A DNA stretch of 37,245 nucleotides from a virus. The notes beneath the pieces were generated by a model, which did no database searches, had not been told where the DNA came from, and worked only from the letters and a program-made list of their open reading frames with translations. The position numbers and the translations under genes were made by a program. The stretch is taken from the IMG/VR virus record IMGVR_UViG_3300050821_013262, positions 1-37,245 of that record. The stretch is one strand, 5' to 3'. This document shows, piece by piece, positions 4,145 through 32,493 of this stretch (position 1 is its first letter; the number at the start of each line of letters is the position of its first letter).

Positions 4145-4676
4145 TTTTTTCCTTATCCAAGTATGGCTGAAGATGTTTGAACTCGGCAGATAATGCAAAA
4201 TTATTTTTCAGGCAATGTTTTATTTCAGCTTGTTCCTGGTGGGTTAAATAAGAAAAAGAAAGATTCTCCTTAGTAGAAGTATTAGTAGAAGTATTAGTAT
4301 CTCGGCCACTGTGGCCGAGGTCAATGTCACTTTTGGCCGAGGTCTTTGCAGATTTGGCCGAGGTGTTCGATTTGGAATCAGCCACCATGGCCGTGGTGTA
4401 GAATAATAAACCAAGTGAAAATCTCCTTGCATATGATTTACCCATTCGATTAATGAATCCCCACGATTCAAGATCATCTAGTCTTCTTCTTAGGGTTCTA
4501 ATTGGTATTCGACATTCTTCCGATAATGCTTCATCTGAATATGTGCATTTGGATTTATCTTTAAGTATTTTATAAAGCGCTCGCATAATATCTCTATGCT
4601 CTGACTTTGTTTCTGGATGCTTTAAAATGATATGCGGGATTTGATCATACGGAACATTTGTTTTTATATTAGCCAT
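4125..4676 (-). CDS. Winged-helix replication-type protein with internal iterons
   Basis: A 183-residue protein. Residues about 25-80 form a winged helix-turn-helix (YSDEALSEECRIPIRTLRRRLDDLESWGFINR), the type found at the N-terminus of phage and plasmid initiators (HTH_36-like). A low-complexity Ser/Thr/Lys linker (about 105-145) is encoded by DNA containing three perfect TGGCCGAGGT repeats and a fourth variant. This is the same plan as lambda gene O, where origin iterons lie inside the initiator gene. The C-terminus is charged. It is preceded by a structured leader and a micro-ORF. A plain transcription factor is the alternative. No helicase or loader is recognisable beside it. Confidence 0.6.
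   Translation of the reverse strand: MANIKTNVPYDQIPHIILKHPETKSEHRDIMRALYKILKDKSKCTYSDEALSEECRIPIRTLRRRLDDLESWGFINRMGKSYARRFSLGLLFYTTAMVADSKSNTSAKSAKTSAKSDIDLGHSGRDTNTSTNTSTKENLSFSYLTHQEQAEIKHCLKNNFALSAEFKHLQPYLDKEKNEKDNN
4312..4397. repeat. Intragenic iterons, TGGCCGAGGT x3 plus one variant
   Basis: TGGCCGAGGT occurs at 4312-4321, 4334-4343 and 4355-4364, with starts 22 and 21 bp apart, about two helical turns. TGGCCGTGGT follows at 4388-4397. The first copy is also half of the inverted repeat CTCGGCCA-CTG-TGGCCGAG at 4301-4319. Spacing in helical register argues for protein binding on one face of the DNA, as at an iteron origin. A short TTAGTAGAAGTA tandem repeat lies just beside it. Confidence 0.6.
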
Positions 4677-4716
4677 TTGTTATACTTACCCCGTAGTCAT
4701 GTAGTGCGTGAATTTG

Positions 4717-4752
4717 AAAGCCGGTAGGGCGCCAACCCTTTGACCCGGCTTT
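4717..4752 (-). promoter_or_regulatory. Leader hairpin upstream of the replication-type gene
   Basis: AAAGCCGG (4717-4724) pairs perfectly with CCGGCTTT (4745-4752). An inner AGGG/CCCT pair (4726-4729 with 4736-4739) extends the fold. On the leftward transcript it lies between the terminator at 4786-4812 and the gene at 4676. CCGGCTTT is also present at 4805-4812, so the distal arm can pair with either copy. Confidence 0.5.
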
Positions 4753-4785
4753 TGCTTTTCTGCATGATAGCATTTATCGCAGACG

Positions 4786-4812
4786 AAAAAAAACCGGAAC
4801 TCGTCCGGCTTT
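4786..4812 (-). terminator. Intrinsic terminator between micro-ORF and rep-type gene
   Basis: On the minus strand GCCGGA and TCCGGT form a stem around a five-base CGAGT loop, followed at once by eight T residues. It lies 25 bp past the stop of the micro-ORF at 4837-4914 and before the gene at 4676, so it could end or attenuate leftward transcription. Confidence 0.7.
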
Positions 4813-4836
4813 ATAAAAGTCTACATCCTAATTTCA

Positions 4837-4914
4837 TCATCGTAATAACACGGCATATATCAAAATATATAACACGGTTCCATAAATAGCGCCTATAAAT
4901 AAATCTTTCATCAT
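4837..4914 (-). CDS. 25-residue single-pass membrane micro-protein
   Basis: ATGATG follows a strong AAGGGGAA site. The frame encodes a very hydrophobic peptide (MMKDLFIGAIYGTVLYILIY, then AVLLR) with one membrane span and a basic end. It is the first reading frame behind the promoter at 4942-4970 and ends 25 bp before a terminator hairpin. It may be a functional membrane micro-protein, a leader peptide for attenuation, or both. Either is inference; the ribosome binding site and hydrophobic pattern are directly visible. Confidence 0.5.
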   Translation of the reverse strand: MMKDLFIGAIYGTVLYILIYAVLLR

Positions 4915-4941
4915 TTCCCCTTATTAATTATAATGAAAATC

Positions 4942-4970
4942 ATACTATAGTAATACTAATTATGTGTCAA
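4942..4970 (-). promoter_or_regulatory. Leftward promoter with ACTATAGTAATACTA operator
   Basis: On the minus strand TTGACA (4970-4965), a 17-base spacer and TAGTAT (4947-4942) make a near-consensus sigma-70 promoter. The -35 overlaps the stop of the 683-residue ejection gene. ACTATAGTAATACTA (4944-4958), with the palindromic core TAGTAATACTA, overlaps the -10 and spacer. The same 15 bases occur in the same phase at 26458-26472. Confidence 0.7.
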
Positions 4971-7018
4971 TCTTTCATGAGATAACGTCGTAAAGCTTCT
5001 TCAACCCCCAAGGTTGTCAATCCGCCTATAGCCCTATTGGTAATCTTTGATTTAGTCTCTTCTTTCTTTTTAATAGCTTCCTTCAACGCGTCTTCTTTGG
5101 ACTTATAATTTTCTTTCGCGCTTGCGGTTAAGTTTCCTTCTTTTCGCAATTTATCATGTAATTCCTGCATCCGTTTAAGGTCTGATTGCAATTTAGGTAT
5201 TTCATTGGTTACCTTATGGATTGATTCCATTTGCTGAGCATGTTCCAGATTGCTATGAGCGGTCTTCTGATGCTCCATAAGCCGAGATATCTCAGGATTT
5301 GCTTTCAGGTATGGATCAAGTAGTTTATTGGGCTCCATGAGCTTCCCTGGAGATTTTGCAAATGATTTACCCAGGACAAGGCGTGATAATTCAGGATGTG
5401 AATGAATCAAATCGTTAAGGATCTCATTACCTTTTGTAGTTCCGCTTAATGCTTCAATTAAATCACCCTTATATTTTCCATGTTTTAACATTTGTTGGTA
5501 AATAGGGTTTTCATTGAGCGGTGCTACATGAGTGGCGTATATATGATTAATTTTTCTTAACTTGGTCATAACGTCTGGTGGAAAATGTTTTTCCATTAAA
5601 TTTTCCATGGATGCCATTTGTTTCTTTATTGCATCTGCTTCAGTGATATATTTATCTGGATCCAGAGTACCGTATTTAAAAGCTTGCGAGCGCGTCTTGC
5701 CCTCGATACGTGAAAGTGTTCTATAAGAATTTAAAAAAGCTGCCCCGCTAACGTTTTCACCAGGTTTTGTATGAAATGCTTTTATTTCATTCTCTAACTT
5801 TTCACGTGCTTTATCGGTCAAGTAACGACTTTTTAAAACAGGCGAATCCATTAAAGATTTCTGAAGCGCTTTAGTATCAACCGTTCCAGGTAGTTCAATA
5901 TTCCTGCCTGCCACTTGTTCTGTAAGATCGTTAAACTTGCTTCCTACTATCTTTCTAAAGCCTCCTTCACGTCTTAATTTTGTAAATCCGGTTTTTTCAT
6001 CAACATAGGGGACTTTCTTACCTTCTATAGAATCTACTATATGATTAGAAAGTTTTTGTATATGGGCCTCACCTTCTCCTAAATGCTCCGCCATTGCCTT
6101 ATGAACATTTTCTATATTGTGCTTTGCTTCAGGTACTGTTTGTTCTCCAGGTAACATTTTTTCTTCAGGTAATTTATTTTCTTTTAAAAGGTTGGCTTCT
6201 TTTAACGAATTTTCTTTATCGGCCATTTTAAGCAACATAGACTCAGGGTCTCTGGCACCAAATTCATGCGAGGCAACTCTTTCAACACCTTTCAACTCGG
6301 ATTCCTGACCTAACAAATGTTTTAATGCCTGCTCTAATTCAGGTTCGTGAGCACCAACATTTCTCGATGAAATATATTTTCCAATTCCTTGCAAGGCCGA
6401 AGGAATAAGACCAGCCACACCACCAACAACAGCACCCTGAGGCCTGTTTTCTTCATTGGATGCATAACCGGTTGCTGCACCTGATGCGATTCCTGCAAGT
6501 GCTTTCTGCAATGCTGTATTGCCAATTTGAGCGCCTTTAGCTCCTCCAATTGCAGGAATTAACATCGGTAAAACATTTTCCATTATCGTCTCACCAGCAG
6601 CCTCTGACGCTGACGCAGGATTATGATGTTTGGTTAATTCAGGATGAGGAATTCTTACATGAGGGAAATGTATTCCCATCTGCTCGAATAAAGAAGGCAT
6701 AAGTTTATTGCCAACAGCTTCGCCTGCTTCCATTCCCACATTACCCATGGAAGCAAGAACATCACCAACACCCTGAGCGCCACCACGTAATGCACCTTTA
6801 GTGTAATTTCCCTGCTGTTTAAGTAGATTGCCAATCATGGATTGAAGATCAGCCGGTTGCTGGGAAGCTTGTTGTGGCATTGGTTCTTGTGGAGAAGGCT
6901 GCTCTTCCTGCATTTCAGGTTGCATAGATTCTTGCGATTCAGGAAATAAATTAGTCCCAGAGCTTTCTGCTTCAGGAAATAAATTCATTGGTGCTTTTGT
7001 ATTTTTTGCAGTTTTCAT
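4967..7018 (-). CDS. Ejection (internal virion) protein, 683 residues
   Basis: A large protein fitting the third, longest ejection-protein position of P22-like phages (P22 gp16 is 609 residues). The N-terminus is rich in Pro, Gln and Glu. Residues about 140-215 hold Gly/Ala-rich hydrophobic helices (LPMLIPAIGGAKGAQIG; GAVVGGVAGLIPSALQGIG) suited to membrane insertion. The C-terminal third is coiled coil. Such proteins are packaged in the head and leave with the DNA to form a conduit across the cell envelope. The start overlaps the preceding stop by four bases (ATGA). The assignment rests on order, size and composition. A virion-associated protein of another type is the main alternative. Confidence 0.65.
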   Translation of the reverse strand: MKTAKNTKAPMNLFPEAESSGTNLFPESQESMQPEMQEEQPSPQEPMPQQASQQPADLQSMIGNLLKQQGNYTKGALRGGAQGVGDVLASMGNVGMEAGEAVGNKLMPSLFEQMGIHFPHVRIPHPELTKHHNPASASEAAGETIMENVLPMLIPAIGGAKGAQIGNTALQKALAGIASGAATGYASNEENRPQGAVVGGVAGLIPSALQGIGKYISSRNVGAHEPELEQALKHLLGQESELKGVERVASHEFGARDPESMLLKMADKENSLKEANLLKENKLPEEKMLPGEQTVPEAKHNIENVHKAMAEHLGEGEAHIQKLSNHIVDSIEGKKVPYVDEKTGFTKLRREGGFRKIVGSKFNDLTEQVAGRNIELPGTVDTKALQKSLMDSPVLKSRYLTDKAREKLENEIKAFHTKPGENVSGAAFLNSYRTLSRIEGKTRSQAFKYGTLDPDKYITEADAIKKQMASMENLMEKHFPPDVMTKLRKINHIYATHVAPLNENPIYQQMLKHGKYKGDLIEALSGTTKGNEILNDLIHSHPELSRLVLGKSFAKSPGKLMEPNKLLDPYLKANPEISRLMEHQKTAHSNLEHAQQMESIHKVTNEIPKLQSDLKRMQELHDKLRKEGNLTASAKENYKSKEDALKEAIKKKEETKSKITNRAIGGLTTLGVEEALRRYLMKD

Positions 7019-8133
7019 CTGTTTCTATTCGCTATCCAGTCCCTGAATTCAGCAGCATTTTTTATGCCAACCTTTTGGGCTTCCATAACAATTTCTGGTG
7101 TTGTGTTAAACAATTTAGCGGTATGCTGTATATCTTTTGAAACTTGACCGACATTCTCTGTTACATTTTTCTGCATATTACCCTGTGCTTCAGGATTAAC
7201 CTCTATACCTGAAGCCAAAGCTTTATTGTAATTCTTAATCCTTCCCTCGATGAAAGGCCACGCTTGCTTTAATCTTGCTGCAACAGCCTCTTCAGATTCT
7301 CCTGGATGTACTGAAAATATAGAATCAATCAAATGGGGATTAAGACCTATAGATTGCAATCCTGGTTGCATCTGAGCCTTTAATGATATCATTTTGGCTT
7401 TTGCTTCAGCTGGGCCTCTACCACCCATGAACTGGGAAGCAATCTTGCCCAAAGGGCCTAATTTCTCTATACCTCCAGCAATCTCGGAAATATTTGTTTT
7501 TATTTTTCCAGTACCAGCAAATTGTGACGCCAATTTAGAATATTCATCAAATGTCTTCTTTAATCCTTTGGTCTGTAACAGAGCATTTTCACCCTGACTT
7601 ACAACACCTGACCCAGGCGTCTGAATAATGTTACCTTCGGCATCTCTATGAGCTTTTCCACCTGTATAGCCAGACTCAGTGAAAGGCTGAGTAATTTTCC
7701 CGCCCAAACCATGGGGAACTAATCCACCTTCCGGCCCACTTTGTTGAGGTTGGGGCATATTTGTTGCTTGACCCTGAGCAGAGGCATTACCTTGCTGACC
7801 ACCATGAAACATAGAGGCAATCTTATCCATGATGCCACCACCACCCTGAGCCTGACCACCGGGAATACCTTGACCTTGTCCCTGATTCTGAATCATCTGC
7901 GAAATATAATTCATTATTTGTTCGCGTTGTTTAGAATCCAGTCCTTCTGCTATAGGACTAATAGCAATCTGTGCAAGTGGCCCTAATTGCTTTGACAAAA
8001 TATCGGCTTCATGATGCCTTGTAGCATATTGCGCTTTCGTCATTTCCTGATATTTTCGCAAAGCATCCTGCAATATACCGCCGCCCATCTGTTGTGGAGT
8101 AAGAATTGGATATTGACCACCTGATGAAAACAT
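7015..8133 (-). CDS. Ejection (internal virion) protein, 372 residues
   Basis: A Gln/Gly-rich protein with low-complexity linkers around residues 80-135 and a helical C-terminal half (KAKMISLKAQMQPGLQSIGL; EEAVAARLKQAWPFIEGRI). Its position between a gp7-like and a gp16-like gene matches the gp20 slot of P22-type ejection cassettes (P22 gp20 is 471 residues). It is probably carried inside the capsid and released into the periplasm with the DNA. It is co-translated with the downstream gene through a four-base overlap. No enzymatic motif was seen. Confidence 0.6.
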   Translation of the reverse strand: MFSSGGQYPILTPQQMGGGILQDALRKYQEMTKAQYATRHHEADILSKQLGPLAQIAISPIAEGLDSKQREQIMNYISQMIQNQGQGQGIPGGQAQGGGGIMDKIASMFHGGQQGNASAQGQATNMPQPQQSGPEGGLVPHGLGGKITQPFTESGYTGGKAHRDAEGNIIQTPGSGVVSQGENALLQTKGLKKTFDEYSKLASQFAGTGKIKTNISEIAGGIEKLGPLGKIASQFMGGRGPAEAKAKMISLKAQMQPGLQSIGLNPHLIDSIFSVHPGESEEAVAARLKQAWPFIEGRIKNYNKALASGIEVNPEAQGNMQKNVTENVGQVSKDIQHTAKLFNTTPEIVMEAQKVGIKNAAEFRDWIANRNR

Positions 8134-26827: not shown

Positions 26828-27289
26828 ATGGCGCGACCTACGATTTATAATCAAGCATTAGCTGACTTGATTTGCGAGCGAGTTGCTACTCATGATATGG
26901 GATTGCAGCAACTTTGTGACACTTACGATGATTTGCCTTGTAAATATACAATACTGAGCTGGAGACACAAATATGACTCATTTTCATCCCAGTACGCGAG
27001 AGCAAAAGAACGTCAAGTTAACCTGTTGGCTGAACAAATATTAGAAATAGCGGACGATGCGAAGAATGATTATACAATTGATGAAAATGGCAAGAAAGTT
27101 ATAGACCATGAGTTAGCTGCGCGCTCACGATTGCGCATAGATTCACGGAAATGGCTTGCTTCAAAACTAGCCCCAAAGCTGTATGGTGACATTGGCAGAA
27201 TAACGTTAGAAGACGGTACAGCAGAATCGGTTAGCAATGTACGCGCTACGGTGGATGCTATTCTGAAGGAAAAAGAAAGGCCGTATTGA
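26828..27289 (+). CDS. terS: Terminase small subunit (Sf6 gp1-like)
   Basis: A 153-residue protein. The N-terminal HTH (ADLICERVATHDMGLQQLCD) and the following YTILSWRHKYDSFSSQYARA then KERQVNLLAEQILEIADDA match the small terminase family typified by Sf6 gp1, which recognises the packaging site on concatemeric DNA and hands it to the large subunit. It lies upstream of the large terminase, although separated from it by about 1.5 kb of accessory genes, which is unusual. The pac site may lie in or near this gene, as in related phages. Confidence 0.85.
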   Translation: MARPTIYNQALADLICERVATHDMGLQQLCDTYDDLPCKYTILSWRHKYDSFSSQYARAKERQVNLLAEQILEIADDAKNDYTIDENGKKVIDHELAARSRLRIDSRKWLASKLAPKLYGDIGRITLEDGTAESVSNVRATVDAILKEKERPY

Positions 27290-27533: not shown

Positions 27534-27737
27534 ATGACGCACAAATTTAAATTTGGCGATGAAGTGGATTATATATATAAAGACGGTGACAAGTCCCCAG
27601 CTACAGTTATTGAGATAAATGATGACGGCGTAGGAATGTGGGTCAAATGGCATGATTCGCCCTGCATGCCAGTACAGTTGATGCCATGCAACAGGTTTGA
27701 GATTAATCATGAGAGAATGAAAAATGAAAAAAGCTAA
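27534..27737 (+). CDS. Small SH3-like hypothetical protein
   Basis: A 67-residue protein starting at ATG 27534 after AAAAGGAATTATC; an upstream in-frame ATG at 27498 lies in the operator. The pattern FGDEVDYIYKDGDKSPATVI then EINDDGVGMWVKW suggests a small five-stranded barrel of SH3/KOW type. First gene of the rightward accessory insert. Function unknown. Confidence 0.55.
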   Translation: MTHKFKFGDEVDYIYKDGDKSPATVIEINDDGVGMWVKWHDSPCMPVQLMPCNRFEINHERMKNEKS

Positions 27738-27849
27738 ACTATTAATAACAGGAGTAATGGCAATTCAGGCGGTGTTTTGTTTGTGCTTGATAATAGCTGC
27801 AGGTGCAGGACTAACGTTTATCATTCACGAACTAATAAAGGCTTGGTAA
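27724..27849 (+). CDS. 41-residue membrane protein
   Basis: It starts inside the end of the previous gene. Basic start (MKKAKLL), then a long hydrophobic stretch (GVMAIQAVFCLCLIIAAGAG, LTFIIHELI). Its stop directly abuts the ATG of the TnpA-like gene. Likely an inner-membrane micro-protein. Function unknown. Confidence 0.5.
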   Translation: MKKAKLLITGVMAIQAVFCLCLIIAAGAGLTFIIHELIKAW

Positions 27850-28437
27850 ATGAAGAGAACAAGAAAAAAAACAACAACGTTAAAAAATTCCCATGTACAT
27901 TGGTATAGAGTGTACATGCATTATACAGAATATAATAAAATTCATGGCACCGATATAGTGAGTTATTGTAACATACATGGCCACGATTTTAACAAATATA
28001 GAAACTGTTTATATGCTTATGGTCTGAATTATGTAGGCAATGAAAAAAAGAAGCATGAGTTTATACAAATGGTAAATGATTGTATGTCGTCAGGAATGAG
28101 CCAGGCAAATTACGCAATATCAATAGGAAAACCCATAGCCCACGTAGTCATGGCTTTCGCCCATCTGAGATTGTTAGACGATTTGGAAAAAGAAAACAAT
28201 ACCGATATAAATAAGGAGAATGAATTGAACTTTGTACCATTGAAAAGTTTATTTAAAAGTAAACAACCCGAAATTGAATTATCGCAAGAACCCCAAGATG
28301 AACCAGTTAATCAGCATCTAATAACATGTCAAAATGACATAGAGATAACTATCAGAGCAGGAATCAAAGTTACATTAGGACAACATATTGGTATGGATAA
28401 AATAATGAAAATAGTAGAATTAATGAGGAACTTATAA
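27850..28437 (+). CDS. IS66 TnpA-like protein with two HTH-type units
   Basis: A 195-residue protein. Residues about 75-105 (FIQMVNDCMSSGMSQANYAI then SIGKPIAHVVMAFAHLR) resemble the SGLSQxxYCxxHGI HTH of IS66 TnpA. A first, weaker unit is visible at 17-55 (HWYRVYMHYTEYNKIHGTDI then VSYCNIHG). The C-terminus, NDIEITIRAGIKVTLGQHIG then MDKIMKIVELMRNL, matches the typical IS66 TnpA end, IEI.LPNG..L....D...L..L...L. Its stop overlaps the TnpB-like start in TAATG, as in IS66 elements. The transposase TnpC is absent and no terminal inverted repeats were seen, so it may be a domesticated DNA-binding protein. Confidence 0.65.
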   Translation: MKRTRKKTTTLKNSHVHWYRVYMHYTEYNKIHGTDIVSYCNIHGHDFNKYRNCLYAYGLNYVGNEKKKHEFIQMVNDCMSSGMSQANYAISIGKPIAHVVMAFAHLRLLDDLEKENNTDINKENELNFVPLKSLFKSKQPEIELSQEPQDEPVNQHLITCQNDIEITIRAGIKVTLGQHIGMDKIMKIVELMRNL

Positions 28438-28790
28438 TGATGTTAACAAGTCTTGCAGATAAAAAAATATATATGGCTAGTAAACCTGTTGATTTTAGAA
28501 TGTCCATAGATGGCTTGTCTCAGATGGTGACTAAAAACAAAATGACGTGGTTACACGATGGCTCTGTGTATGTTTTCTATAATCGACATAAAGATAAAAT
28601 TAAATGTTTATTTTGGGACAGAAATGGATTTGTGCTTTACTATAAACGGTTAGATAACACAAAGTTTAAATTTGCAGAGATGACGGAAGAATTGGCTTCG
28701 GTTTCTCCTGAAGACCTGGAGATTATCTTATCGGGATTTGACCCATCGAAAGTTGAAAGGCAGAATTTGTTAACGCATGAGGCGTCATAA
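28437..28790 (+). CDS. tnpB: IS66 TnpB-like protein
   Basis: A 117-residue protein with the full IS66 Orf2 pattern: KIYMASKPVDFRMSIDGLSQ, DGSVYVFYNRHKDKIKCLFW, DRNGFVLYYKRLDNTKFKFA and SPEDLEIILSGFD. IS66 TnpB is an accessory protein needed for transposition with unknown biochemistry. Here it is intact and followed ten bases later by the large terminase gene rather than tnpC. It is in the same reading direction as the packaging genes, and the ribosome binding site of the terminase (AAGGATTTTAA) lies just past its stop. The intact frame argues for selection. Confidence 0.9.
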   Translation: MMLTSLADKKIYMASKPVDFRMSIDGLSQMVTKNKMTWLHDGSVYVFYNRHKDKIKCLFWDRNGFVLYYKRLDNTKFKFAEMTEELASVSPEDLEIILSGFDPSKVERQNLLTHEAS

Positions 28791-28799
28791 GGATTTTAA

Positions 28800-30338
28800 G
28801 TGGCATCAAAAGAATTGATGGAGTTAAGAACTGATTTATGGGCAAGCTTTCTCTTATTCACGCGTACGTTTTTCCCGCTTGTCACTGGTAGACAATTCGT
28901 TATCAGTGAGCCACCGGGGCGTGAATCGCATTACATAACTATAGCTAAAGAGCTGTCTTTAGTGTCAAGGATGCAATGCCCAAGCCTCAATATCAATGTT
29001 CCGCCGGGTTACGGCAAGTCTGTCTTGCTGTGTATGTGGACAGCATGGACATTAAGCAGGTGGCCAAATTCTCAGTATTTATATATAAGCTATGGTAAAG
29101 TACTTGCTACCAAGCATACCGAGTTCATCAAGCGTGTGATAAGCTGTTCTCATTACCGTGATGTTTTTGATGTGAGTATCAGGCATGACAGTAAAGCGAA
29201 AGACTTCTTCCAAACTAACCATGGGGGAGCGATTAAAAGCTTCGGGTCGACGGGTGCGATCACGGGTCAGGACGCGGGACTTCCTAACGTGCCTCACTTT
29301 AGCGGTGCCGTTATTATGGACGACATGCACAAACCAGATGAAGTCCATTCAGATACAATTCGCGCCTCCGTCATCCAAAATTACAAAGAAACTATCTTAC
29401 AGCGTCCACGAGCCCCAAATGTCCCAATTATCTACCTTGGACAAAGACTGCACGAAGACGACCTGACAGCCTATCTCATGTCAGGACAGGATGAGCGTAC
29501 CTGGAAATCCGTAATACTTAAATCCATTGATGACGCAGGTAATGCCCTTTGTCCAACCATTAACCCGCTTGCTCAACTCCGTGAAAAACAAGATAAAAAT
29601 CCCTATGTATTTGCCTCACAATATCAACAAGACCCAATGCCGGCAGGTGGCGCACTATTCAAGCCTGAAAACTTTGTACTTATGGCCGATGAGCCAAAGA
29701 TAATAAAAACATTCATAACAGCGGATACTGCTGAAACCTCTAAAAGTTATAATGATGCAACGGTATTCGGGTTCTTTGGTTTATATGAAATTGAGTTCAA
29801 TAATCAGAAAACAGGGCAATACGGCATACACTCACTGGATTGCTGGGAAGTACGGGTTGAACCCAAAGACCTGCAAGATGAATTTATGTCCTTCTACTCT
29901 GATTGCATGTTGCATCCTGTTAAGCCATTAGTTGCAGCCATTGAGAAGAAATCTACAGGTGTGACTTTAATCAGTACGTTAAAGGAAGTGCGAGGCCTTG
30001 AGATACGCGACGTAAAACGTACCAAAGCTTCAGGAAGCAAAACAGAGCGATTCCTGGAAATGCAACCGATTATTGCTGCAAAGCTCATATCATTCACCCA
30101 TGGCGCAAAGCATGTGGACTTATGCATTAATCATCTAATTAAGATTACTGCCAATGACACGCACCGACATGATGATATAGCAGATGTTTTTTACGATGCT
30201 ATAAAGATAGGATTAATAGACAGAACATTGCTCAATCAGGCAACAGGTGCAAGAGATTATGAAGCAGTTGCAAATAGTTTTGGACAACGAGTACAAAAGA
30301 TTGATAGATTAAAGAAAGCTGCGTATTTTAAAAAGTAG
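28800..30338 (+). CDS. terL: Terminase large subunit
   Basis: A 512-residue packaging motor starting with GTG at 28800 after AAGGATTTTAA. Walker A is VPPGYGKS at 67-74 and Walker B VIMDD at 171-175. The RNase H-type nuclease domain shows Asp309 (ITADTAETS), Glu382 (AIEKKST) and the HRHDDIADVFYDA aspartates near 458-462. It translocates DNA into the procapsid through the portal and cuts the concatemer by headful. It is directly upstream of the portal gene, with an intergenic gap of 55 bp. All expected catalytic residues are present. Confidence 0.95.
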   Translation: MASKELMELRTDLWASFLLFTRTFFPLVTGRQFVISEPPGRESHYITIAKELSLVSRMQCPSLNINVPPGYGKSVLLCMWTAWTLSRWPNSQYLYISYGKVLATKHTEFIKRVISCSHYRDVFDVSIRHDSKAKDFFQTNHGGAIKSFGSTGAITGQDAGLPNVPHFSGAVIMDDMHKPDEVHSDTIRASVIQNYKETILQRPRAPNVPIIYLGQRLHEDDLTAYLMSGQDERTWKSVILKSIDDAGNALCPTINPLAQLREKQDKNPYVFASQYQQDPMPAGGALFKPENFVLMADEPKIIKTFITADTAETSKSYNDATVFGFFGLYEIEFNNQKTGQYGIHSLDCWEVRVEPKDLQDEFMSFYSDCMLHPVKPLVAAIEKKSTGVTLISTLKEVRGLEIRDVKRTKASGSKTERFLEMQPIIAAKLISFTHGAKHVDLCINHLIKITANDTHRHDDIADVFYDAIKIGLIDRTLLNQATGARDYEAVANSFGQRVQKIDRLKKAAYFKK

Positions 30339-30393: not shown

Positions 30394-32493
30394 ATGGATG
30401 TTGCACAAGAATATCAAGACAATCTGGAACGCATCAAGACTAATGTTCGGCGTGCGCATGATTATTTCAAACCAAACTATGACCGATTCAATGAGTTTCG
30501 CAAGTTTATATTTGATACCTCCTTATCTGCTGATGATATAACCCTTTTAATGACTCTGGGAAAGCCGCAACTCGAATTCAATGTCCTGGAAGCCTACATA
30601 TCCCGGCTGTTGGGCGAATTCTCCAAGCAAGAGCCAGACATTGAGGTTTCAGCGGATGACCAGGATAATGCTGACCCGCTGGTGATACGATTCGTCCAGG
30701 AGCATTTGCGACACGTTCTGATGGATAATAAAAATCACCATACGCGTTATGAGCTGTATAAAGATGTATTGTCTGGCGGCTTTGGTGTATTAAAAGTCCT
30801 GACAGATTATGAAAATCCTATGTCCATGAATCAAATAATAATGATTGAGCGCGAGGAGCCAACCCTTGCGGTGTTTGACCAGCTTGCCAGACGCTCCCAT
30901 AAAGGGGATGGGCGCTTCTGTTGTCAACTCTTTCCCAAAGGCAAAGATGATTTTGAAAAAGAATTCCCTGACGCGCCAACCAATACATTAAACTTTCGCC
31001 GTGACTTTGCAGGCTTTAACTGGTCTTATCTCAATGATGCAACACCCATAATACTTATAGGCGATTATTATGAAAAGAAAAGGAAAGAGCGCACAATAGT
31101 GCAGATTAATGATGAAAAGCGCTCTGTTATGACTATGCGCAAGTATAGAAAGCTTGTGGACGAATGGGATGACATAACCGTACCACCGGCTATAATTGGT
31201 AAACCACGCAAAACGATTATTGATACTATTTGCAGATATCGACTCATTGAAAACAGGGTGCTGGAATACGAGGAAACCGATTTTAGCCACTTGCCTCTGG
31301 TCTTTGTGGACGGTTCGTCCGCGATGATTAAAGAGCCTAAAAACGGTAATATAAGGCAGGTGTGCAGGCCTTATGTGTATCATGCAAAAGGCGCTCAGAG
31401 GCTCAAGAACTACGCAGGGATATGTCTTGCCAATGAGCTTGAAAATACTGTTCAGCATAAATTTATGGTGGCAAAAGAGGCGCTTCCCAAAGAAGAGCAA
31501 TTTTTAGAGGCGTATAAGGATGTTCAGAAAGCTTCAGTACTTGTTTATAACTCGGTTCATGAATCAAATCCTGAGCTTCCTATCCAGATGCCGGTACGTG
31601 AGATTAACCGTATTCCTGCCCCTCCAGAGATTATGCAATCGTTTACGGGCGCTGATTCCCTTATTCAAAATGTACTGGGTAGCTATGATGCTTCTCTCGG
31701 CATTAACAATAATCAACTGTCTGGGATTGCTATTGTCGAAGCAGCTTCCCAGTCTAATGCAACCGCCATGCCCTTCATCGTGGGGTTTATGCAAGGACTA
31801 CAACGAGCAGCTGAAATCTATGTCGATTTATTGCCTAAATACATAACCACCCCACGCACGCTTCCCATTATCGATGACGAAGGACAGCGAAATTATCTGC
31901 GTGTTAATCAAAAGCAGGGCATGGATATGGACTTTGATACCAATGTCCTCAACATAAGCATCAAAGCAGGCGCATCCTTCCAGGTTCAAAAATCAAGAAC
32001 GATTATGATGATTAAGGAAATCATGGGAATGAGTCCATTATTTGCGCAATTCATGGCTGAGAAAGGATTGAATTTCATCCTGGATAACATGGAAGGTAAA
32101 GGAGTTGAAGAGCTGAAGATGTTGACTGGCGAGTGGACAGAGCAATATCAGCAGGAAAAACAACAGGCGCAGCAAGCAGAGGCCCAGCAAAATCCTGTGC
32201 AGATGAAGATGCAAATGGAGCAGGCCAAAATGCAGCAACAGTCTCAGAAAGACCAGCAGCAAATGCAGTTGGCAATGGCAAAGATTCAGTCTGAAGATAG
32301 AAAGCTAATGGCTGATTTACATTTAGGTCATGAGTCAGCGAAGGTGCAGATGATTAAAGCGCAAACCGAGCGCATGGCGAAACAGACTGACTTACAAATT
32401 AAACATATGGATATGGGGCACAGACATGCAAAGGAAGTTATCGAGGTTCATACGGCGCTGCATAAACCACATAAGGAACATCGGGTACGATAG
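30394..32493 (+). CDS. Portal protein, P22-like
   Basis: A 699-residue protein (P22 gp1 is 725). The opening QDNLERIKTNVRRAHDYFKP and FNVLEAYISRLLGEFSKQEP segments, the DASLGINNNQLSGIAIVEAA block and the long Gln/Lys-rich C-terminal coiled coil (about 580-699, the barrel of P22 portals) support a P22-like dodecameric portal. It forms the DNA entry channel and binds terminase, then gp4. The C-terminal tail ends in a His-rich stretch (HTALHKPHKEHRVR). Confidence 0.9.
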   Translation: MDVAQEYQDNLERIKTNVRRAHDYFKPNYDRFNEFRKFIFDTSLSADDITLLMTLGKPQLEFNVLEAYISRLLGEFSKQEPDIEVSADDQDNADPLVIRFVQEHLRHVLMDNKNHHTRYELYKDVLSGGFGVLKVLTDYENPMSMNQIIMIEREEPTLAVFDQLARRSHKGDGRFCCQLFPKGKDDFEKEFPDAPTNTLNFRRDFAGFNWSYLNDATPIILIGDYYEKKRKERTIVQINDEKRSVMTMRKYRKLVDEWDDITVPPAIIGKPRKTIIDTICRYRLIENRVLEYEETDFSHLPLVFVDGSSAMIKEPKNGNIRQVCRPYVYHAKGAQRLKNYAGICLANELENTVQHKFMVAKEALPKEEQFLEAYKDVQKASVLVYNSVHESNPELPIQMPVREINRIPAPPEIMQSFTGADSLIQNVLGSYDASLGINNNQLSGIAIVEAASQSNATAMPFIVGFMQGLQRAAEIYVDLLPKYITTPRTLPIIDDEGQRNYLRVNQKQGMDMDFDTNVLNISIKAGASFQVQKSRTIMMIKEIMGMSPLFAQFMAEKGLNFILDNMEGKGVEELKMLTGEWTEQYQQEKQQAQQAEAQQNPVQMKMQMEQAKMQQQSQKDQQQMQLAMAKIQSEDRKLMADLHLGHESAKVQMIKAQTERMAKQTDLQIKHMDMGHRHAKEVIEVHTALHKPHKEHRVR

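Follow-up and report, generated by a model that had tools for sequence, protein, structure and literature searches.

A probably domesticated IS66 TnpA–TnpB module carried by phages without its transposase

Two overlapping genes directly 5′ of the terminase large subunit gene in virus record IMGVR_UViG_3300050821_013262 (the whole record of 37,245 bp was analyzed and is termed the window) probably represent a domesticated IS66 TnpA–TnpB module that, as judged from comparative sequence analysis, is exchanged horizontally between phages as an accessory cassette. The protein families are already known; the new part is a stable, selected life of TnpA–TnpB in phages without TnpC. No earlier description of this was found in the open-licence literature, where searches for domesticated or tnpC-less IS66 genes in phages gave ordinary mentions or insertions only.

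All features of the locus lie on the plus strand. The earlier note had placed the pair at 27850–28790, with an upstream protein of 195 residues and an overlap in TAATG, and the sequence confirmed this exactly: tnpA occupies 27850–28437 (195 amino acids) and tnpB 28437–28790 (117 amino acids), with the stop/start overlap at 28435–28439. In relatives, too, tnpA and tnpB either overlap or are immediately adjacent. The adjacency of terL (28800–30338; phrog_38, E = 4e-77), which lies outside the cassette, also held, although the gap is nine bases rather than the ten first given, the start codon of terL being the GTG at 28800. For context, an Sf6-type terminase small subunit gene, terS (26828–27289; PF20901, E = 6e-31), lies upstream, and a P22-type portal gene was located at 30394–32493 by profile searches. 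Between terS and tnpA there are two small plus-strand open reading frames. A hydrophobic frame of about 41 codons, read from the sequence directly 5′ of tnpA (27724–27849), gave no significant match in a homologue search. Inside the first codons of tnpA (27890–27916), a perfect, operator-like inverted repeat, CATGTACA-N11-TGTACATG, was observed that is not conserved in relatives.

The product of the frame at 28437–28790 is, on profile, alignment and tree comparisons, beyond doubt a genuine IS66 TnpB (Orf2). It matched PF05717 (E = 6e-30, with 103.6 bits where the curated cut-off is 26.6) and the NCBIfam model IS66_TnpB (NF033819, E = 5e-27), and was also matched by phrog_623 (“transposase”; E = 5e-28, positions 126–238 of 259). 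The TnpB alignment comprised 25 rows; the IS66-invariant residues D19, R21, F47, and K56, together with the near-invariant R71, were present in 100% of viral TnpBs, and further residues were fixed in viruses only (e.g. position 22, K to M). The profile match and the retention of all invariant residues bear out the initial reading of this frame as an intact TnpB. An AlphaFold model of moderate quality (pLDDT 74) found no fold match among solved structures, nor was any match to the TnpB sequence found in the PDB.

For TnpA, single-sequence family searches gave no significant match, and tblastn against cultured phages gave none. Profiles were then compared by hhalign, with 21 aligned TnpA relatives set against 17 aligned IS66 TnpAs; a probability of 96.8% (E = 2e-10) was obtained over a region spanning the helix-turn-helix (HTH), the linker, and the C-terminal tail. 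By this comparison, the frame at 27850–28437 encodes a true, though diverged, IS66 TnpA, which agrees with the earlier assignment made from its tail and its TAATG overlap with tnpB. The AlphaFold2 model (mean pLDDT 78) consists of two three-helix HTH units in tandem (approximately residues 12–57 and 65–123), a disordered linker, in which an IS66-like FxxV/L motif occurs, and a tail folded as a β-hairpin plus helix (164–194); the last 45 residues are conserved in the alignment of 21 relatives. Because the first HTH unit matched both IS66 TnpA (hhalign probability 97.2%) and the second unit (96.5%), and the second likewise matched IS66 TnpA (95.8%), the phage protein carries a duplicated reader, the extra unit sitting at the N terminus relative to IS66 TnpA. 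Comparison of the model with solved structures returned weak matches to HTH regulators such as ArdK, KorA, and sigma region 4, but none reached significance. Two variant forms were also noted: a 382-amino acid TnpA (L167, 337–1485) in which the N-terminal HTH region appears duplicated and the conserved tail is kept, with no tnpB following, and a tail-less tandem-HTH part standing alone (L032, 9075–9461) in a phage that also has the full pair.

The absence of the transposase, remarked on from the beginning, was confirmed with PF03050: tnpC could not be detected anywhere in the window, nor in any viral record of the family that was searched (13 of these span 34–42 kb). One distant viral TnpB match (L033) does have tnpC and is an ordinary, true IS66. 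Terminal inverted repeats were likewise said to be lacking, and comparison with shuffled sequence yielded none that were convincing: none bracketed the pair clearly above shuffled expectation, and in most loci of relatives none exceeded chance. A small excess of inverted repeats in the window was traced to one AT-rich match with 3 mismatches, located inside neighbouring genes.

A total of 2.9 million viral contigs were searched, first with TnpB and afterwards with the TnpB alignment. Of the 32 loci recovered, which, like the TerL loci described below, are metagenomic and often fragments, 31 belonged to the family of the window (45–66% identity), so that some 30 viral contigs besides the window carry a family TnpB. 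A TnpA homologue lay directly 5′ of TnpB in nearly all viral loci with upstream sequence, and the pair was intact in relatives with full-length loci. In a tree of 34 viral and 34 other IS66 TnpBs, all 34 viral sequences formed one clade (support 100/99), the sister of which (95/77, from 117 columns) consisted of complete IS66 elements with tnpC from Legionellales-related genomes. IS66 TnpB was found in 21 of 73 such genomes, and tnpC stood beside most IS66 TnpBs of these genomes and of cultured phages. Five loci from Legionellales-related genomes (L212, L213, L214, L217, and L227) are IS66-like with a tnpC-like gene on the opposite strand, facing tnpB. In the bacterial genome collection, copies were seen on 3 MAG contigs, named Desulfosporosinus, Myxococcales, and Legionellales, for which binning errors are possible; the Myxococcales copy is an ordinary IS66-like locus.

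Selection on TnpB was estimated from seven pairs unsaturated at silent sites, giving dN/dS values of 0.09–0.30 with a median of 0.13. In pairs whose TnpBs are 85–87% identical, the HTH half of TnpA is merely 42–45% identical. This contrast between a conserved TnpB and TnpA tail and a fast-changing HTH half is, as far as the alignments go, what a constant partner paired with a changing reader would show. Taken together, the single viral clade, the purifying selection, and the retention of the IS66-invariant residues support one ancient capture and domestication. The domestication proposed in the earlier note for a pair without tnpC thus gained support from the one viral clade, a dN/dS of about 0.1, the lack of tnpC in the family, and the intact frames; the decay that would have spoken against it was not seen in relatives with full-length loci.

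Of the roles suggested at the outset, packaging fared worst. TnpA–TnpB would here act as a packaging or late-gene factor that cooperates with the terminase and might, for instance, mark the site of packaging; in favour of this, the pair is located in the window between terS and terL, in the same orientation as both. However, with the window TerL as query, TnpB was found beside terL in 0 of 72 other viral TerL relatives (within the stored flank), and among 46 whole, longer records of TerL relatives only G074 gave a PF05717 match, to a diverged copy remote from terL. Twenty TnpB-positive TerLs formed one clade in the TerL tree; the window was placed elsewhere, among otherwise TnpB-negative phages. 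That clade does lend packaging some support. Where its contigs extend 3.3 kb or more upstream of terL, 18 of 23 members have the pair 0.1–2.8 kb 5′ of terL (10 of 15 where they extend 5 kb or more), but the other five of the 23 have no pair there. The pair is missing from L161, L171, and L184, and in L161 and L184 the small genes that flank the cassette elsewhere are adjacent; the clade evidently inherited the pair vertically, with losses. In the nearest terL relatives of the window, L084 and L085, terS and terL are only ∼160 bp apart with no cassette, and the site filled in the window is therefore empty in theirs. Other phages have the pair by recombination genes and are without the window-type TerL. 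One such group carries TnpBs 56–62% identical to that of the window, whereas the portal proteins are just 21–24% identical; in the two phages checked, the pair was near RecT, a PDDEXK nuclease, and a helicase in one and near AAA_24 and DUF669 in the other. The empty sites, the several positions, and the mismatch between TnpB and portal identities indicate an accessory cassette that is mobile between phages and can be lost, with the position directly before terL being one landing site among several. The empty sites are readable at gene level, the relatives being too diverged for exact cassette borders or an 8-bp target duplication. Given the TerL surveys and the losses within the positive clade, the packaging role was rejected and is considered very unlikely; a regulatory or anti-defence role fits better.

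In the main clade, the neighbours of the cassette include tRNA genes, an RNA ligase gene, RtcB, and a phosphoesterase. L161, L177, L027, L003, and L012 have as many as seven tRNA genes 5′ of terL; in L177 this region also encodes RNA ligase and RtcB, suggesting tRNA repair or counter-defence. An 894-amino acid TerL (L016, 5680–8361; also L030/G016) contains an intein near the Walker B region (Intein_splicing, E = 2e-10), and a similar TerL of 873 amino acids in L030 is split at the same residue. TerLs of L141 and L152 are ∼795 amino acids long; an intein search of L141 gave no match. In a 51.5-kb record (L162), a sensor histidine kinase gene (4571–7330) lies just 5′ of a terL relative, perhaps at a phage–host junction.

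That the pair is a recent remnant or non-autonomous IS66 copy heading for decay is scarcely credible. Ordinary IS66 elements do enter phages, as seen in cultured-phage copies and in reported ordinary insertions (PMC8631192), but a single viral clade, purifying selection, and intact frames in full-length loci are at odds with decay, and element ends were not above chance in most loci. This candidate was accordingly rejected on the missing ends, the selection on TnpB, and the tree. It is improbable, if less so, that phage TnpA–TnpB compete with host TnpC or supply it with accessory factors, so as to shield the phage from IS66 insertion or take over the host enzyme. Every IS66-invariant TnpB residue is retained, and the sister group consists of IS66 elements from Legionellales-related genomes, in which TnpB occurs at the frequency given above; on the other hand, no element ends are present, the bacterial genome collection holds few copies (the 3 contigs), and TnpA, with its extra, fast-changing HTH, may no longer recognize IS66 ends.

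A role as phage transcription regulator, with TnpA acting together with TnpB on its own gene or on late genes, deserves more weight than either of these, although it too seems unlikely and ranks below counter-defence. Tandem HTH units would suit it, as would the non-significant fold matches to ArdK, KorA, and sigma region 4 and the inverted repeat that the window has in the first codons of tnpA. That repeat is not general: a search for a common operator-like repeat at tnpA across relatives gave nothing above chance, with 14 inverted repeats observed against 12.5 expected in 28 loci. Regulation also leaves the strong constraint on TnpB unexplained, and the cassette is dispensable and varies in position between phage regions. 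The sporadic distribution, the transfer between phages, the fast-changing reader, and the tRNA and RNA-repair neighbours in the main clade are together best accommodated by an accessory host-takeover or counter-defence factor, a role to which we give a little under an even chance. PADLOC, which covers known anti-phage defence families, gave no match on the cassette.

As a working model for the domesticated cassette, a tailed phage would have acquired the two accessory genes of an IS66 element of the Legionellales type, with loss of the transposase gene and element ends; TnpA would have gained its second HTH, and tnpA–tnpB would since have spread across phage lineages as a cassette. The tandem HTHs of TnpA would bind specific DNA, the conserved TnpA tail would hold TnpB, and the complex would block or redirect a DNA transaction independently of the transposase. 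DNA binding and complex formation are steps that we infer, because a search of the open-licence literature gave no biochemical function for IS66 TnpA or TnpB. More speculatively, and with somewhat less confidence than the counter-defence role itself, IS66 TnpA and TnpB could constitute a stand-alone DNA-targeting complex with its own transposase-independent activity, which phages use as a modular counter-defence or host-takeover device, with TnpB as the constant effector and TnpA as an HTH reader that diversifies quickly and can be duplicated.

No account is known of what TnpA and TnpB contribute to the transposition of IS66. Retention of the pair by a phage lineage without TnpC suggests a selectable function that belongs to the two proteins themselves, which, being small and intact, allow it to be assayed separately from transposition. 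The pair would also be a case in which phages domesticate the accessory, not the catalytic, genes of a transposon and pass them on as a cassette.

IS66 TnpB also occurs inside the genomes of Pseudomonas phage Marin (OR683406) and a Leptospira phage (KF114877); unlike the pair studied here, these copies are ordinary insertions in which tnpC adjoins tnpB, and their TnpBs are ∼32–35% identical. The family phrog_623 carries a transposase label (integration and excision) and does not distinguish tnpC-less copies. The closest known system is IS66 of the Legionellales type (e.g. L201–L205), the nearest relatives in the TnpB tree, which shares the TnpA–TnpB order, the close junction, a PF05717 TnpB, and a TnpA with an HTH and C-terminal tail. 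The phage pair differs from it in having no tnpC, no terminal repeats that could be found, and a second HTH in TnpA, and in being fixed in phage genomes under selection with virus-specific TnpB residues, such as that at position 22.
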